Shown in pieces: positions 18,801-20,459 of a stretch of 64,000 nucleotides of DNA; positions within the stretch are counted from its first letter, which is position 1; each line of letters opens with the position of its first letter. The notes under the pieces were generated by a model. That model was not told the origin of the DNA and made no database searches. It saw only the letters and a program-made list of their open reading frames with translations. The position numbers and the translations under genes are program-made. The DNA comes from Leptasterias polaris (taxonomy: Eukaryota > Echinodermata > Asteroidea > Forcipulatida > Asteriidae), in assembly GCA_037783415.1 (NCBI GenBank), contig JAZGTN010000002.1, positions 124,001 to 188,000 on the forward strand, given 5' to 3'.

Positions 18801-20459
18801 TAGGATAGAGGGAAACATGCACCAGGCAAGGAGTTCCAAAGAGATGACTTCTTCTCACCTATGACACCATCCAACCAGAATGACCCAAGTCTCCAGTATA
18901 AAATATGCCAAGGTTGTCATAGGCTTCTTCCATAGAGTGATCTTAGCCCTTTCTTCTCGTTCCAAACGATGTTGCTCTCTGACTACGTGATGATCTTCAG
19001 ATTCTAATGGGCTAGGAGTCTGGGCTTGAGACTGCTGTGGCCCGTTGATCAACTCCCCGATGCCGGGTGTTATGTTGTTTTGCTTAAACATCTCGTCTGT
19101 TTCTTTCAGACGAATTATCTGAGAGCGAAATTAAACGAATTAAGGCCTGATTATATCATTGAATAAAATATCAATGGTTGATAACATTCAAACTATCTGA
19201 CAATGTACAGTATCGCCTTGTAAACAATTCACGTTGCTAGATCTCTTGCAGACCATTAAAGGTAGGGTTACTTATAGTCTGGTAAATACTCTAAAAAATA
19301 TTGGCCTTAAAAACTTCCTTTTGAGAACTGATTCCCTGCATGATTCATGCATGAATTGTTTCTCAGTTTTCTGAGGGTTGGTGCCCATTCGCAAATACTA
19401 CAGGCCATGTTGGTACCCGCTGTCACCTCGCTAAAGAACGTGGATGGATTTGACGTTGTTGTAAAAAATACTGAAATTTCCCCCCGTTTTCTCAATGTAT
19501 TCAGCTGAAAATTTTAGTAGTTACTTTTATTGTATCTTTCTAAAGCTACATGTATATAATTTTGCCTATAATGCACGACCCTACATCTTTAACACTACCC
19601 ATTTTGTGTAATCTTTAGGAGGATTGAATCTCCAGTTAAGTGCAGTGCGTAGTGTCAGGTCGTTTTACCATTGCGTCGCCGAGCGCAATCATTTTGGAAT
19701 GATCCCAATCATGCCAAGCAAAATACGACGTCATCGGCCGGCCGCGCTGTGGGCGGAGCAAGGCTGCGAACATTTCCATGGTTGCTTTACGTATCCGCTC
19801 CGCCCACATTCCAAAATGGCGGCGCCCAGTACAAATCACAGAAAGTAATTTGGAGTAGGTCGCACAATTATTGTTTGAAATATCTTTTTAAAAAGTTATT
19901 GGTTTGAACATCCAAAACACACAAGGCAAGCTATAAAGACTAAGACTAAAAGAGGTAGGTGAACACATTTATGATTTAGCTGGTTTAAACTGCATACCGG
20001 CCCGTCCCGTAGGGAATGCGCTTTGAAATGGTTATCGCTCATGTCGCTTAGTTAGCTTAAAACAAGAAATGGGCGGGACGTGTGGCCAAGGATTCAGATT
20101 TGCCACACAAGTGGGGCTTAAGGGGTTAAACCATGATAACTGTACTGGGAATCACACAAAATCAAAAGTGGTATCACACTTCGTGCAACCATAGCGCAAT
20201 GTGCAATAGACAAAAAAGATGCGGGCGCTTTCGTTGCTACACACACCCGTCCGTATCGTACATCCCTACGAATCGATACGATCGACGACCTACCTAACCT
20301 AGTGTTTTAAAATTAGTGATACCGACTAAAAATTCAATTTATTTCAATCATTCAAAATAATTATTCGATTACCATTTCACGTTTCAGACCCTTGACTCGA
20401 AGGCCACGTTTCTTCAACTCTGTCTTTAGCTGTGAAACTTTAAACTTGGAGTAATCCAT
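803..20459 (-). CDS. VMP1: VMP1 orthologue (vacuole membrane protein 1), 13 coding exons, 452 aa, with N-terminal SAP-like motif
   Basis: VMP1 is a multipass ER protein of the VTT/DedA-like family that acts in autophagosome formation, lipid scrambling and ER-organelle contacts. Coding exons in transcript order: 20373-20459, 18859-19118, 12192-12282, 11449-11559, 10656-10735, 9463-9547, 8430-8481, 7957-8045, 5449-5529, 4106-4222, 3222-3283, 2368-2470, 803-943. All junctions are GT-AG, phases agree and no stop interrupts the frame. Conserved VMP1 blocks are readable: [13 protein letters not shown] (exon 4), FPEPPYPD (exon 5), GELPPYFMA (exon 7), [11 protein letters not shown] (exon 9), [14 protein letters not shown] (exon 10) and [10 protein letters not shown] (exon 13). 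The human protein is about 406 residues, and the excess here is N-terminal. Exon 3 could also end 3 nt earlier (phase unchanged). The start is the ATG at 20459, in good context (GCCATGG). An in-frame ATG at 19091 would give the canonical form. No poly(A) signal was located downstream of 803. Confidence 0.95.
1445..1640 (-). mobile_element. tRNA-derived SINE (family A)
   Basis: On the minus strand a tRNA-like head reads TAGATAGCTCAGTTGGTAGA (box A), then GGTTCAAATCCCGCTC (box B). It is followed by AATTTTTCTTTGTTCAACCC and preceded by GGAGACCGCCAACAT. The same head and flanks recur at 9115, 11100-11330, 12790 and 14466, so it is a dispersed SINE, not a free-standing tRNA gene. It lies in the 3'-flanking part of VMP1. 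Confidence 0.8.
2005..2280 (+). repeat. SINE family A fragment joined to GGCCAAATGCC repeat copy 2
   Basis: A partial tRNA-like 3' half (AGGTTCAAGTCCCGCTC plus AATTTTTCTTT) runs into a second copy of the CCGCTGGCCAAATGCC repeat. Confidence 0.6.
2525..2885 (-). mobile_element. tRNA-derived SINE (family B), diverged copy
   Basis: On the minus strand this reads GGCCAAGC...GGTTCGAGTCCTGGTCATGAC, AAGAGAAGCAATTAGTGCC, a CCTGGG segment and a tail at about 2530-2600 with GTGCTTTACA. It matches the better copies at 31520-31852 and 57045-57388. It overlaps the VMP1 intron upstream of exon 12. Confidence 0.65.
3360..3545 (-). mobile_element. tRNA-derived SINE (family C)
   Basis: On the minus strand a tRNA-like head (TCTAGTTGGTTAGATAT, then GGTTCGAATCTCACCC) is followed by a body that, read on the plus strand, contains ACACCAATGTGTGTAAAGCAC and ATACTCAGTACTTTCCC. 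The body recurs without the head at 3605-3725 and 29990-30115. Confidence 0.7.
3605..3725 (-). repeat. SINE family C body fragment
   Basis: Contains ACACCGATGTGTGTTAAGCAC and ATACTCAGTACTTTCCCCGAG, matching the body of the element at 3360-3545. No tRNA head is visible. Confidence 0.65.
3740..3900. repeat. Possible SINE family B fragment
   Basis: AAGCGCCTTACACTAATTATTGCCC and the following AGTATTCCTCAAACTACCTC resemble the 3' body of family B. It is diverged and truncated. Confidence 0.35.
4530..4670. repeat. Degenerate GTCTCGGTCTTG tandem repeat
   Basis: Short, irregular repeats of TCTCGGTCTTGGTCT-type sequence in a VMP1 intron. Both strands can be read as short SR/GLG-type frames, which I take to be non-coding. 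Confidence 0.7.
5190..5260. repeat. Short inverted/direct repeat around AGGCTTCATGCCTGAA
   Basis: AAGGCTTCATGCCTG occurs twice in tandem and is followed by its partial inverse GAAGCCTTTCTCAGG, giving a small hairpin in a VMP1 intron. Confidence 0.6.
5635..7928. repeat. 24-bp minisatellite, roughly 95 units
   Basis: The array is built from a 24-bp unit, GGGAACACTGGTGCCTTGGG plus CCTA, with variants such as CCTAAGGCTTA, CTAGGGCCTACGA and GAGTCTAGGG. Blocks of identical units (6430-6624, 6813-7007, 7293-7500, 7580-7822) alternate with blocks of variants, which suggests higher-order or local homogenisation. Because 24 is a multiple of 3, the array stays open on both strands (LGLGNTGA on plus, FPRPKAPV on minus). 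It lies in the VMP1 intron between exons 9 and 8 and ends 28 bp from exon 8. I treat it as intronic and non-coding. Confidence 0.95.
9115..9265 (+). mobile_element. tRNA-derived SINE (family A)
   Basis: GGGAGACCGCCAACATAG, a decayed box A region, then GTCGTTGGTTCAAATCCTGC and AATTTTTCTTTGTTTAACCCC. It lies in the VMP1 intron between exons 7 and 6. AAGTAATAAACCACCAGGGAA just upstream is a part that accompanies other copies. Confidence 0.7.
10168..10369. mobile_element. MITE-like element with about 27-bp terminal inverted repeats
   Basis: The left end TCTGGGTCCAATTTCATGGC is mirrored at the right by GCCATAAAATTGGACCCAGA. The arms continue through CTCTGCTTA. Inside is a tandem run (about 10197-10290) of a 19-bp unit, CATAATTCTGTGCTTACCA. 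A partial second right end follows at 10485-10510 (AGCAGAGCCATAAAATTGGG). Related sequence occurs at about 23250-23400 and 26878-26935. No transposase is present. Confidence 0.75.
11100..11330. mobile_element. Two head-to-head family A SINE pieces
   Basis: 11130-11205 reads as a minus-strand head (CTCTACCAACTG, CCTAGCCCTATATTGG). It abuts a plus-strand copy at about 11208-11330 (GACTGCCAACATAGG, ATAGCTCAGTAGGTAGAGCG, GGTTCAAATCCCGCTC). It lies in the VMP1 intron between exons 5 and 4. Confidence 0.7.
12640..12970 (+). mobile_element. tRNA-derived SINE (family A) with body
   Basis: AGGAGACCGCCAACATCAGG, TAGATAGCTCAGTTAGTAGA and GTTCAAATCCCGCTCTAG, then TTTGTTTAAAAC and TTGTGGTTTATAACTTGATA. 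The upstream part carries a second, inverted partial copy (GAGCTCTAGTCACTTTTTC, TTCAACCCCATTAATT). Confidence 0.75.
13295..14220. repeat. Duplicated segments and a foldback in VMP1 intron 2
   Basis: 13300-13385 and 14130-14220 are diverged direct copies (both contain CTCCAGAATACAAAGGTTTA and GATCAGTAACTGAC). Between them, 13873-14055 is an inverted repeat: GCAGGCCTGTGGCTGTACAT and GAACTCTCACCCAGTT are mirrored by AACTGGGTGAGAGTTC and TGTACAGCCACAGGCC. Confidence 0.7.
14466..14660 (-). mobile_element. tRNA-derived SINE (family A)
   Basis: This is close to the copy at 1445 and in the same orientation. Read on the plus strand it contains GACTAGAGCGGGATTTGAAC, CCAACTGAGCTATCTAGCC and GTTGGCGGTCTCCCTG, then GGGGTGCCAGTCAGAA. 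It lies in the 6.6 kb VMP1 intron. Confidence 0.8.
15608..17643 (-). pseudogene. 5'-truncated CR1/L2-type LINE, reverse-transcriptase ORF with two nonsense codons
   Basis: A single minus-strand frame can be followed from about 17643 to a TAA at 15742. It carries the palm motifs of a non-LTR reverse transcriptase: [36 protein letters not shown] and YADDTQLY, then the C-terminal [13 protein letters not shown] block. In-frame stops at 17272-17274 (TGA) and 16963-16965 (TAG, where QSAYK is usual after DPY) kill it. The endonuclease domain is absent. Downstream of the stop is an AT-rich tail ending in an (AAT)n run at 15611-15650, as expected for L2/CR1-type insertions. It sits in the same orientation as VMP1, in its second intron. 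Confidence 0.9.
15611..15650. repeat. (AAT)n microsatellite
   Basis: A pure run of AAT units about 40 bp long, best read as the 3' tail of the neighbouring LINE. Confidence 0.95.
18040..18225 (-). repeat. GGCCAAATGCC repeat, inverted copy
   Basis: ACTGGCATTTGGCTAGCCCA and CAACACTGGACTAGCC are the inverse of the copies at 175-300 and 2090-2280. Confidence 0.55.
18320..18570. other. Low-complexity C and A tracts in VMP1 intron 2
   Basis: Runs of C at about 18320 and 18554 flank an A-rich stretch. No gene is seen. Confidence 0.6.
18859..19118 (-). CDS. VMP1: VMP1 exon 2: end of SAP-like motif, Q/P-rich linker, first membrane segment
   Basis: This 86-codon exon completes the SAP-like motif. 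A low-complexity linker follows ([15 protein letters not shown]), then a charged stretch ([17 protein letters not shown]) that matches the vertebrate REREERQNIVLW segment, and the start of the first hydrophobic helix ([10 protein letters not shown]). An internal in-frame ATG at 19091-19089 is a plausible start for an isoform lacking SAP. The exon ends two bases into a codon at CATAG|gtgaga and joins exon 3 at 12282 across a 6.6 kb intron. Confidence 0.85.
19640..19830. promoter_or_regulatory. GC-rich segment with YY1-like and GC-box-like motifs in VMP1 intron 1
   Basis: This stretch is much richer in CpG than its surroundings. It contains AAAATGGCGGC (YY1-like, 19813-19823), GTGGGCGGAGC with its inverse GCTCCGCCCAC, and TACGACGTCATCGG (CRE-like). 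It lies 0.5-0.7 kb upstream of exon 2 in the direction of VMP1 transcription. It could drive a transcript starting at the exon 2 ATG, without the SAP motif. The paired arms CATTTTGGAATG and CATTCCAAAATG mean it could equally be a small foldback element. Confidence 0.3.
20373..20459 (-). CDS. VMP1: VMP1 exon 1: start of a SAP-like motif
   Basis: This 29-codon exon begins [19 protein letters not shown] and splices in phase 0 from ATG|gtaatc into exon 2, which begins IIRLKE. The joined segment follows the SAP consensus: a hydrophobic/LK helix ([14 protein letters not shown]), the short VKG turn, then a second amphipathic helix ending in IIRLKE. SAP motifs (about 35 residues) bind DNA or RNA in nuclear proteins and are not part of the vertebrate VMP1 I know. 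The alternative is a 5' exon whose SAP resemblance is fortuitous, but the placement of G, K, L and I fits the motif closely. The initiator context GCCATGG is strong. Confidence 0.75.

Follow-up and report, generated by a model that had tools for sequence, protein, structure and literature searches.

A SAP domain at the N-terminus of sea star VMP1 is widespread among animals and may tether an endoplasmic reticulum scramblase to nucleic acid

In this study, we have found that the VMP1 (vacuole membrane protein 1) gene of the sea star Leptasterias polaris is predicted to encode an N-terminal SAP domain, a small module typical of proteins that handle DNA or RNA, assembled from its first two exons, in front of the membrane core of a VTT/DedA-type endoplasmic reticulum (ER) scramblase. 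Judged by its sequence relatives, the SAP-bearing protein is an ancient animal form of VMP1, of which the L. polaris gene is the sea star copy. What is new is the pattern: the domain is animal-wide, occupies one position, is apparently exon-swappable, and was seen in none of the vertebrate or tunicate forms examined.

Exon modelling placed a 13-exon VMP1 gene on the minus strand, complete within the window, that is, the whole 64,000-nt stretch of DNA analyzed. The coding part of exon 1 (20373..20459) has 29 codons with the start context GCCATGG and specifies SAP helix 1, the loop, and the start of helix 2 (29 residues); without splicing, a stop codon would be reached three codons further on. 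Its donor, ATG followed by gtaatc, is weak, with T at +5. Intron 1 (19119..20372), which splits SAP helix 2, is phase 0 at both ends, so that exons 1 and 2 join in phase. Exon 2 (18859..19118), whose acceptor reads tttcgctctcag directly before ATAATT, supplies the end of helix 2 (IIRLKE), a linker, the REER..LW motif, and the first long hydrophobic helix. Eleven coding exons follow, down to position 803, and every intron is GT-AG. The end of exon 3 (12192..12282) was corrected to 12192 because the Asterias protein (P0001) reads GSHQVYVQ, which gives a predicted protein of 452 amino acids. The VMP1 core is encoded by exons 4 (11449..11559), 5 (10656..10735), 6 (9463..9547), 7 (8430..8481), and 8 (7957..8045), and the VTT core by exons 9 (5449..5529) and 10 (4106..4222); exons 11 (3222..3283) and 12 (2368..2470) lead to exon 13 (803..943), which includes the stop codon.

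The first-pass annotation had recognized a SAP motif in exons 1 and 2 joined in phase, and the Pfam check upheld it: SAP (PF02037) matched residues 2 to 37 at 39.6 bits against a cutoff of 23.9 (E, 3.6e-10). When exon 1 was joined in turn to the AG acceptors upstream of exon 3 and the 452 products were scored with a SAP profile that included Asterias, the join at 19118 ranked highest at 61.4; the next best scored 59.4, and the median of the scored rows was 50.7. Since most of the motif already lies within exon 1, this lead is a modest one. A chance match or a misjoined exon was ruled out by the Pfam score, the relatives with the same domain, and this acceptor-join test. A SAP domain at the N-terminus of the predicted protein, produced by the exon 1-exon 2 join, is therefore confirmed at the level of sequence.

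The fold prediction was run on the Asterias protein, which stands in for the window's own protein. In this model, based on a 91-row alignment, residues 1 to 40 had pLDDT values of 90 to 95, with predicted helices at residues 8 to 17 and 26 to 42, the two-helix helix-extension-helix arrangement of a SAP domain. Foldseek superposed the model on the Tho1 SAP at 0.7 Å over 40 columns (50% identity; probability, 1.00; E, 2.2) and on the SARNP/Hcc-1 SAP at 0.9 Å over 39 columns (E, 3.5); neither E value is significant, since the query was a whole membrane protein, and with the whole model no match was found at an E value of 0.001 or better. A family profile search recovered the SAP domains of Tho1, Hcc-1, HNRNPUL1, and MKL1 at E values of 0.0006 to 0.008 and that of a thyroid autoantigen, which we take to be Ku70, at 0.028; in the copy of the PDB searched, it met no chain of VMP1.

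The remainder of the protein had been described as an otherwise canonical VMP1, a description borne out by the full 13-exon gene and by 96% identity to the VMP1 of Asterias rubens, a gene model that opens with the same SAP domain. Among the matches listed, the core was 59 to 68% identical to vertebrate VMP1s over 79 to 91% of the query, and nearly all of the named matches among the 120 listed were called VMP1. The Pfam VTT model scored 27.7 bits, under its cutoff of 33.9, as it likewise fell under the cutoff in the three vertebrate VMP1s scanned; it was matched at an E value of up to 0.01 in all 91 non-vertebrate VMP1 members. In a tree of the core, the L. polaris protein grouped with Asterias and the echinoderms; tunicates stood next to ambulacrarians and Branchiostoma lay outside the rest of the deuterostomes, each at an open fork. 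We assign the predicted protein to VMP1 as a full-length ortholog with the VTT/DedA-type core. It shares the entire membrane core with vertebrate VMP1; unlike the vertebrate and tunicate forms examined, it adds a SAP domain of about 36 residues and a longer linker before the core.

We retrieved 200 VMP1 proteins. The SAP domain was present in 85 of the 91 non-vertebrate members and in 0 of the 109 vertebrate-type members, as scored with a profile built from 16 of those 85 carriers; one of the listings was ranked in a way that favored SAP carriers, and so these counts are not prevalences. The Pfam model itself matched 84 of the 91 at an E value of up to 0.01. The sample comprised animals, and neither Drosophila nor C. 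elegans appeared in the lists. Carriers included a sponge, cnidarians, protostomes, echinoderms, a hemichordate, and amphioxus, and the domain was absent from VMP1 of both tunicates (sea squirts) examined. The earlier statement that vertebrate VMP1 has no such motif agrees with these counts, and the comparison that it had proposed with other echinoderms and hemichordates found the domain there too. A reading of the motif as an echinoderm oddity was not supported, and an echinoderm-specific gain was ruled out by the sponge, cnidarian, and protostome carriers. A search scored on residues 1 to 110 of the Lineus protein alone returned only the self-match among 64 candidates, an outcome that we attribute to the tool's reliance on shared five-residue words and not to a lack of relatives.

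The domain appears to be under constraint: across the 85 sequences, pairwise identity was 0.40 in the SAP domain versus 0.154 in the adjoining linker. This difference bears on the explanation that the domain is an annotation artefact or a dispensable leftover, with exon 1 seldom joined or its product functionless, as the weak donor, the annotated SAP-free isoforms discussed below, and the vertebrates and tunicates that do without the domain might suggest. However, the same domain is found at the same place on VMP1 from sponge to amphioxus. Furthermore, 22 of the 85 relatives had no contig larger than 2.9 kb (1.5 to 2.9 kb), and these transcript-sized contigs carry SAP-VMP1 frames, one of them (P0165) with only a partial SAP. 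Since such contigs are too small for a gene of about 20 kb like the one here, most of them are probably assembled mRNAs, which would constitute indirect transcript evidence. We regard an artefact or leftover as highly improbable.

The first-pass annotation had also raised the idea of a dual-start locus, which gains some support here. SAP-free VMP1 isoforms are annotated in Amphiura, Glandiceps, and Tubulanus (X2). In Glandiceps isoform X2 and in the Elysia marginata gene model, a different N-terminus takes the place of exon 1, and the changeover falls in both at the residue equivalent to the intron 1 splice point; for Elysia, the gene model itself could be poor. The Tubulanus and Amphiura isoforms do not have this shared junction, which counts against exon swaps in these two. 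In the window, an in-frame ATG lies right after the SAP domain (LKETDE-M; 19089..19091, minus strand) and is a candidate SAP-free start. A methionine fell within 12 residues after the SAP domain in 59 of 83 relatives, compared with a shuffled mean of 27.9 and a highest value of 43 in 2,000 shuffles; two of the 85 rows were dropped from this test (the linker end was not found by pattern), and the rows are related sequences, with many insects sharing one form. The short start at the exon 2 ATG is offered as a statistical hint. Either an exon 1 swap or a start at this ATG would give a VMP1 without the SAP domain, suited to its usual tasks in the ER.

With regard to function, we tentatively favor, at somewhat less than even chances, a reading in which the SAP domain is an optional nucleic-acid tether, with DNA the preferred ligand, on an ER and nuclear-envelope scramblase. 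Exon 1 would place the domain on the cytosolic or nucleoplasmic face of the ER; the VMP1 N-terminus is predicted to be cytosolic in PMC5115753, in agreement with the earlier annotation. The same paper indicates that in HeLa cells VMP1 lacking its first 61 residues loses its ER puncta and perinuclear accumulation, and therefore that the tail guides location; that vertebrate tail has no SAP domain. The domain would bind nucleic acid, most likely double-stranded DNA, as did the SAP of yeast Tho1, the closest solved SAP, which bound dsDNA and not dsRNA (PMC4909252). Bound to DNA, it would tether or concentrate VMP1 at membrane lying on chromatin, either the nuclear envelope or ER contacting chromatin in mitosis. 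On the line leading to vertebrates and tunicates, the SAP-free form alone would have been retained. As vertebrate VMP1 works without it, neither scrambling nor autophagy depends on the SAP domain. As to a nuclear-membrane location, PMC13061601 groups CLCC1, a protein of the ER and nuclear envelope, with LAP1, LULL1, TMEM41B, and VMP1 by organelle profile.

The Tho1 result also bears on the possibility, raised in the first-pass annotation as RNA tethering to the ER, that the domain binds RNA in the cytosol and so keeps messages or RNP granules at ER domains rich in VMP1. The predicted cytosolic N-terminus would suit such a role, as would the nearest SAP domains, those of Tho1, SARNP/Hcc-1, and HNRNPUL1, which PMC4909252 links to mRNA export or processing. 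These domains resemble that of VMP1 in sequence and in charged signature residues, and those of Tho1 and Hcc-1 also in predicted fold; unlike VMP1, a multispan ER protein, they belong to soluble nuclear mRNA-handling proteins (PMC4909252). However, that source credits another part of Tho1 with RNA binding, and in view of the dsRNA result we consider RNA tethering distinctly unlikely. The dsRNA result leaves room for binding of single-stranded RNA.

A further explanation is that the domain docks VMP1 to a protein partner in the cytosol or at the nuclear envelope, its ligand not being nucleic acid. The binding of Lap2alpha by MRTF-A requires the MRTF-A SAP (PMC8831594), and a predicted cytosolic tail that guides location would be well placed for docking. 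Against this, the SAP domain was net positive in 85 of 85 relatives (median, +5), and charged positions of other SAP domains are kept. PMC8831594 describes four conserved charged SAP positions at spacings of 6, 8, and 6; in the window protein these (K-x5-R-x7-K-x5-R) are residues 12, 18, 26, and 32, all four basic. All four were basic in 62 of 85 relatives and at least three in 85 of 85, whereas five shifted position sets used as a control each gave 0 of 85. The same charged positions are those that were mutated to weaken the MRTF-A/Lap2alpha interaction in that source, and the basic residues therefore do not decide against protein docking, which we judge to be somewhat unlikely.

The DNA tether that we favor would resemble the role of the N-terminal LEM/HeH domains of inner nuclear membrane proteins such as MAN1 and Src1/Heh1, which likewise place a helix-extension-helix module on a transmembrane protein in a membrane continuous with the ER; direct interaction with DNA is possible for fungal HeH domains (PMC4810098). 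Those proteins have an MSC domain, where SAP-VMP1 has a scramblase core. LEM/HeH identity for the VMP1 N-terminus was rejected, since the Pfam search found no such match in the window protein at an E value of up to 1; the HeH model was matched in 2 of the 91 non-vertebrate relatives.

It can be envisioned, although we think it unlikely, that ancestral animals made two VMP1s from one gene. One, with the SAP domain, would hold the scramblase on DNA, at the nuclear envelope or on chromatin in mitosis, where membrane has to grow or be resealed; the other, lacking the domain, would serve the ER. Vertebrates and tunicates would then have lost the first of these. A search of one literature library found no paper pairing VMP1 or TMEM41B with the term "SAP domain," and among the related entries listed none showed a SAP domain on VMP1. 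Automatic databases already make the SAP call, and "SAP domain-containing protein" is the name of some of their entries.

Most work on VMP1 has been done in mammalian cells. As the vertebrate and sea squirt forms examined have no SAP domain, a function of this protein may escape notice in the usual laboratory models. If many phyla keep a nucleic-acid-binding module on a scramblase, VMP1 may perform a task connected with chromatin or RNA that vertebrates have given up or passed to another protein; alternatively, SAP domains may have a membrane role so far undescribed. If the two-form reading is true, a nuclear-membrane role of VMP1 would have been missed in mammalian work because vertebrates lost the SAP form.

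We located a complete VMP1 gene on the minus strand of the window (20459 to 803), with thirteen coding exons and introns that are all GT-AG and all in phase. The end of exon 3 was placed at 12192 by comparison with Asterias rubens VMP1 (P0001), because that protein has one extra residue there; with this boundary, the window VMP1 has 452 amino acids and differs from Asterias VMP1 at 18 positions, 2 of them within residues 1 to 36, a similarity which suggests that the source is probably a sea star closely related to Asterias. A SAP domain had been claimed in the first-pass annotation from exons 1 and 2, and the Pfam check agrees: exon 1 (20459 to 20373) encodes 29 residues, the next 10 come from the start of exon 2 (from 19118), and residues 2 to 37 match SAP (PF02037) at 39.6 bits (E = 3.6e-10; cutoff, 23.9), with neither LEM nor HeH reported by Pfam at E values up to 1. 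The best matches of the first 94 residues among solved proteins are the SAP domains of Tho1, E1B-AP5 (HNRNPUL1), Hcc-1, and MKL1. AlphaFold2 was run on Asterias VMP1 rather than on the window's own protein, with an alignment of 91 sequences; residues 1 to 40 were modeled at a pLDDT of 90 to 95, with helices at 8 to 17 and 26 to 42, followed by a low-confidence linker. In Foldseek, the SAP part superposed on the Tho1 SAP domain at 0.7 Å (40 columns, 50% identity); the E values were not significant because the query was a whole membrane protein. It is near certain that this VMP1 carries a SAP domain.

The domain is widespread in animals. The best 120 of 3,090 matches from a full-protein search and the best 120 of 3,141 from a search with a profile built to rank by N terminus were pooled, and the 200 distinct proteins among the matches listed were sorted by name and N terminus into 109 vertebrate-type proteins (including 6 unnamed ones, all with vertebrate-like starts) and 91 others. 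Among these matches, 85 of the 91 exceeded 10 bits with a SAP profile from 16 carriers and none of the 109 vertebrate-type proteins exceeded 5 bits, as the annotation had anticipated for vertebrates; Pfam reported SAP in 84 of the 91 at E values up to 0.01. These counts reflect breadth, not prevalence, since the N-terminus-ranked search was built to favor SAP carriers. Named carriers include the sponge Oscarella; the cnidarians Actinia, Xenia, and Acropora; Priapulus, insects, a scorpion, sea spiders, and ostracods; molluscs, annelids, Lingula, and Lineus; and five named echinoderms, Saccoglossus, and Branchiostoma. SAP is missing from six proteins: those of the tunicates Clavelina and Ciona, of Amphiura, Glandiceps, and Tubulanus (isoform X2 in each case), and of Elysia marginata; relatives of the latter four do carry it. 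Some proteins of this set are already labeled "SAP domain-containing protein" in databases; full-text searches of open-licence literature, which mostly excludes subscription papers, returned no match for VMP1 or TMEM41B with "SAP domain," and the main text of a 2024 VMP1 review (PMC11294092) has no word starting with "N-termin," "evolution," or "invertebrate."

A quick core-only tree (N terminus excluded; 104 rows; 33 of 101 inner branches starred) mostly tracks animal groups, with tunicates adjoining ambulacrarians and with Branchiostoma falling outside the rest of the deuterostomes, both at open forks. The SAP label changes six times if the four isoform-type cases are scored SAP-free and twice without them, in vertebrates and in tunicates. 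Tunicates and vertebrates are sister groups, so one loss would suffice. In this sample of animal VMP1, the gain would date to the animal root or earlier.

The domain may also be optional within species. Intron 1 falls within the second SAP helix, separating residues 29 and 30. The match of Glandiceps isoform X2 to Saccoglossus begins exactly at the isoleucine equivalent to this point, and that of Elysia marginata begins at the same residue against Plakobranchus and two residues earlier against Elysia chlorotica; ahead of the junction, both N termini are unrelated sequence. Because both proteins change over there, the splice site appears, as read from proteins, to be common to sea star, hemichordate, and gastropod, and exon 1 appears to be exchangeable, although a faulty gene model may account for Elysia marginata. 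No such junction was seen in Tubulanus or Amphiura. A methionine follows SAP within 12 residues in 59 of 83 carriers (shuffled mean, 27.9; highest of 2,000, 43), an excess that fits a SAP-free start, with a count inflated by kinship of the sequences; in the window, the corresponding in-frame ATG is at 19091 to 19089 (minus strand).

Several VMP1 introns hold repeats. Intron 2 contains broken reverse-transcriptase-like frames on the VMP1 strand (15742 to 17514, minus), of which 15742 to 16917 matches RVT_1; intron 5 has a perfect tandem repeat (10189 to 10290; 19-base unit, 5.4 copies), and intron 8 has a minisatellite in a GC-rich patch (5688 to 7928; 24-base unit, about 93 copies, 90% matches). 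Two minus-strand tRNA-Asn-like sequences (ARAGORN) with similar flanks, at 1491 to 1563 in intron 12 and 14490 to 14564 in intron 2, look like copies of a tRNA-derived SINE; by eye, there also seem to be more diverged copies near 2060, 9260, 11300, and 12920. Elsewhere on the plus strand, an intact non-LTR retrotransposon frame (50346 to 53936; 1,196 amino acids) encodes an endonuclease and a reverse transcriptase; near its N terminus is a stretch ending in GDIESNPGP, which we take to resemble a 2A ribosome-skipping peptide, and after it comes a weak PHD-finger match that falls short of the Pfam cutoff. A rhodopsin-family GPCR frame (30406 to 31206, plus; 266 amino acids) matches 7tm_1 at 99.3 bits over only the first 192 of 260 profile positions and is thus incomplete or continued in another exon.

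Mean pairwise identity among the 85 carriers is 0.40 in SAP, 0.154 in the linker after it, 0.527 in the REER-LW motif, and 0.69 in the VTT core. Leucine 11 is conserved in 84 carriers and glycine 24 in 82; residue 26 is basic in all 85 and residue 32 in 82. Residues 12, 18, 26, and 32 are spaced like the four charged SAP positions that were mutated in work on MRTF-A (excerpts of PMC8831594); basic residues occupy all four sites in 62 of 85 carriers and at least three in all 85, compared with 0 of 85 each time the set is moved by -2, -1, 1, 2, or 3.

What the domain binds can be stated only tentatively. A serious but less likely rival to the DNA tether favored below is that it is a protein-binding module. 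The VMP1 N-terminal tail is predicted to be cytosolic, and in HeLa cells deletion of the first 61 residues abolishes the ER puncta and the perinuclear accumulation of VMP1 (excerpts of PMC5115753). SAP on this tail would be exposed to the cytosol at the ER and the outer nuclear membrane, or to the nucleoplasm at the inner nuclear membrane. The Tho1 SAP domain binds dsDNA but not dsRNA (excerpts of PMC4909252). RNA tethering by VMP1, an early suggestion for this locus, is also a serious rival, though fairly unlikely. In fungi, the HeH domains of proteins at the inner nuclear membrane are capable of direct DNA binding (excerpts of PMC4810098). Based on the tail topology and the DNA binding of Tho1 SAP and HeH domains, we favor, with less than even confidence, a role for the SAP domain of VMP1 as a DNA tether, which would act at the nuclear envelope or on mitotic chromatin.
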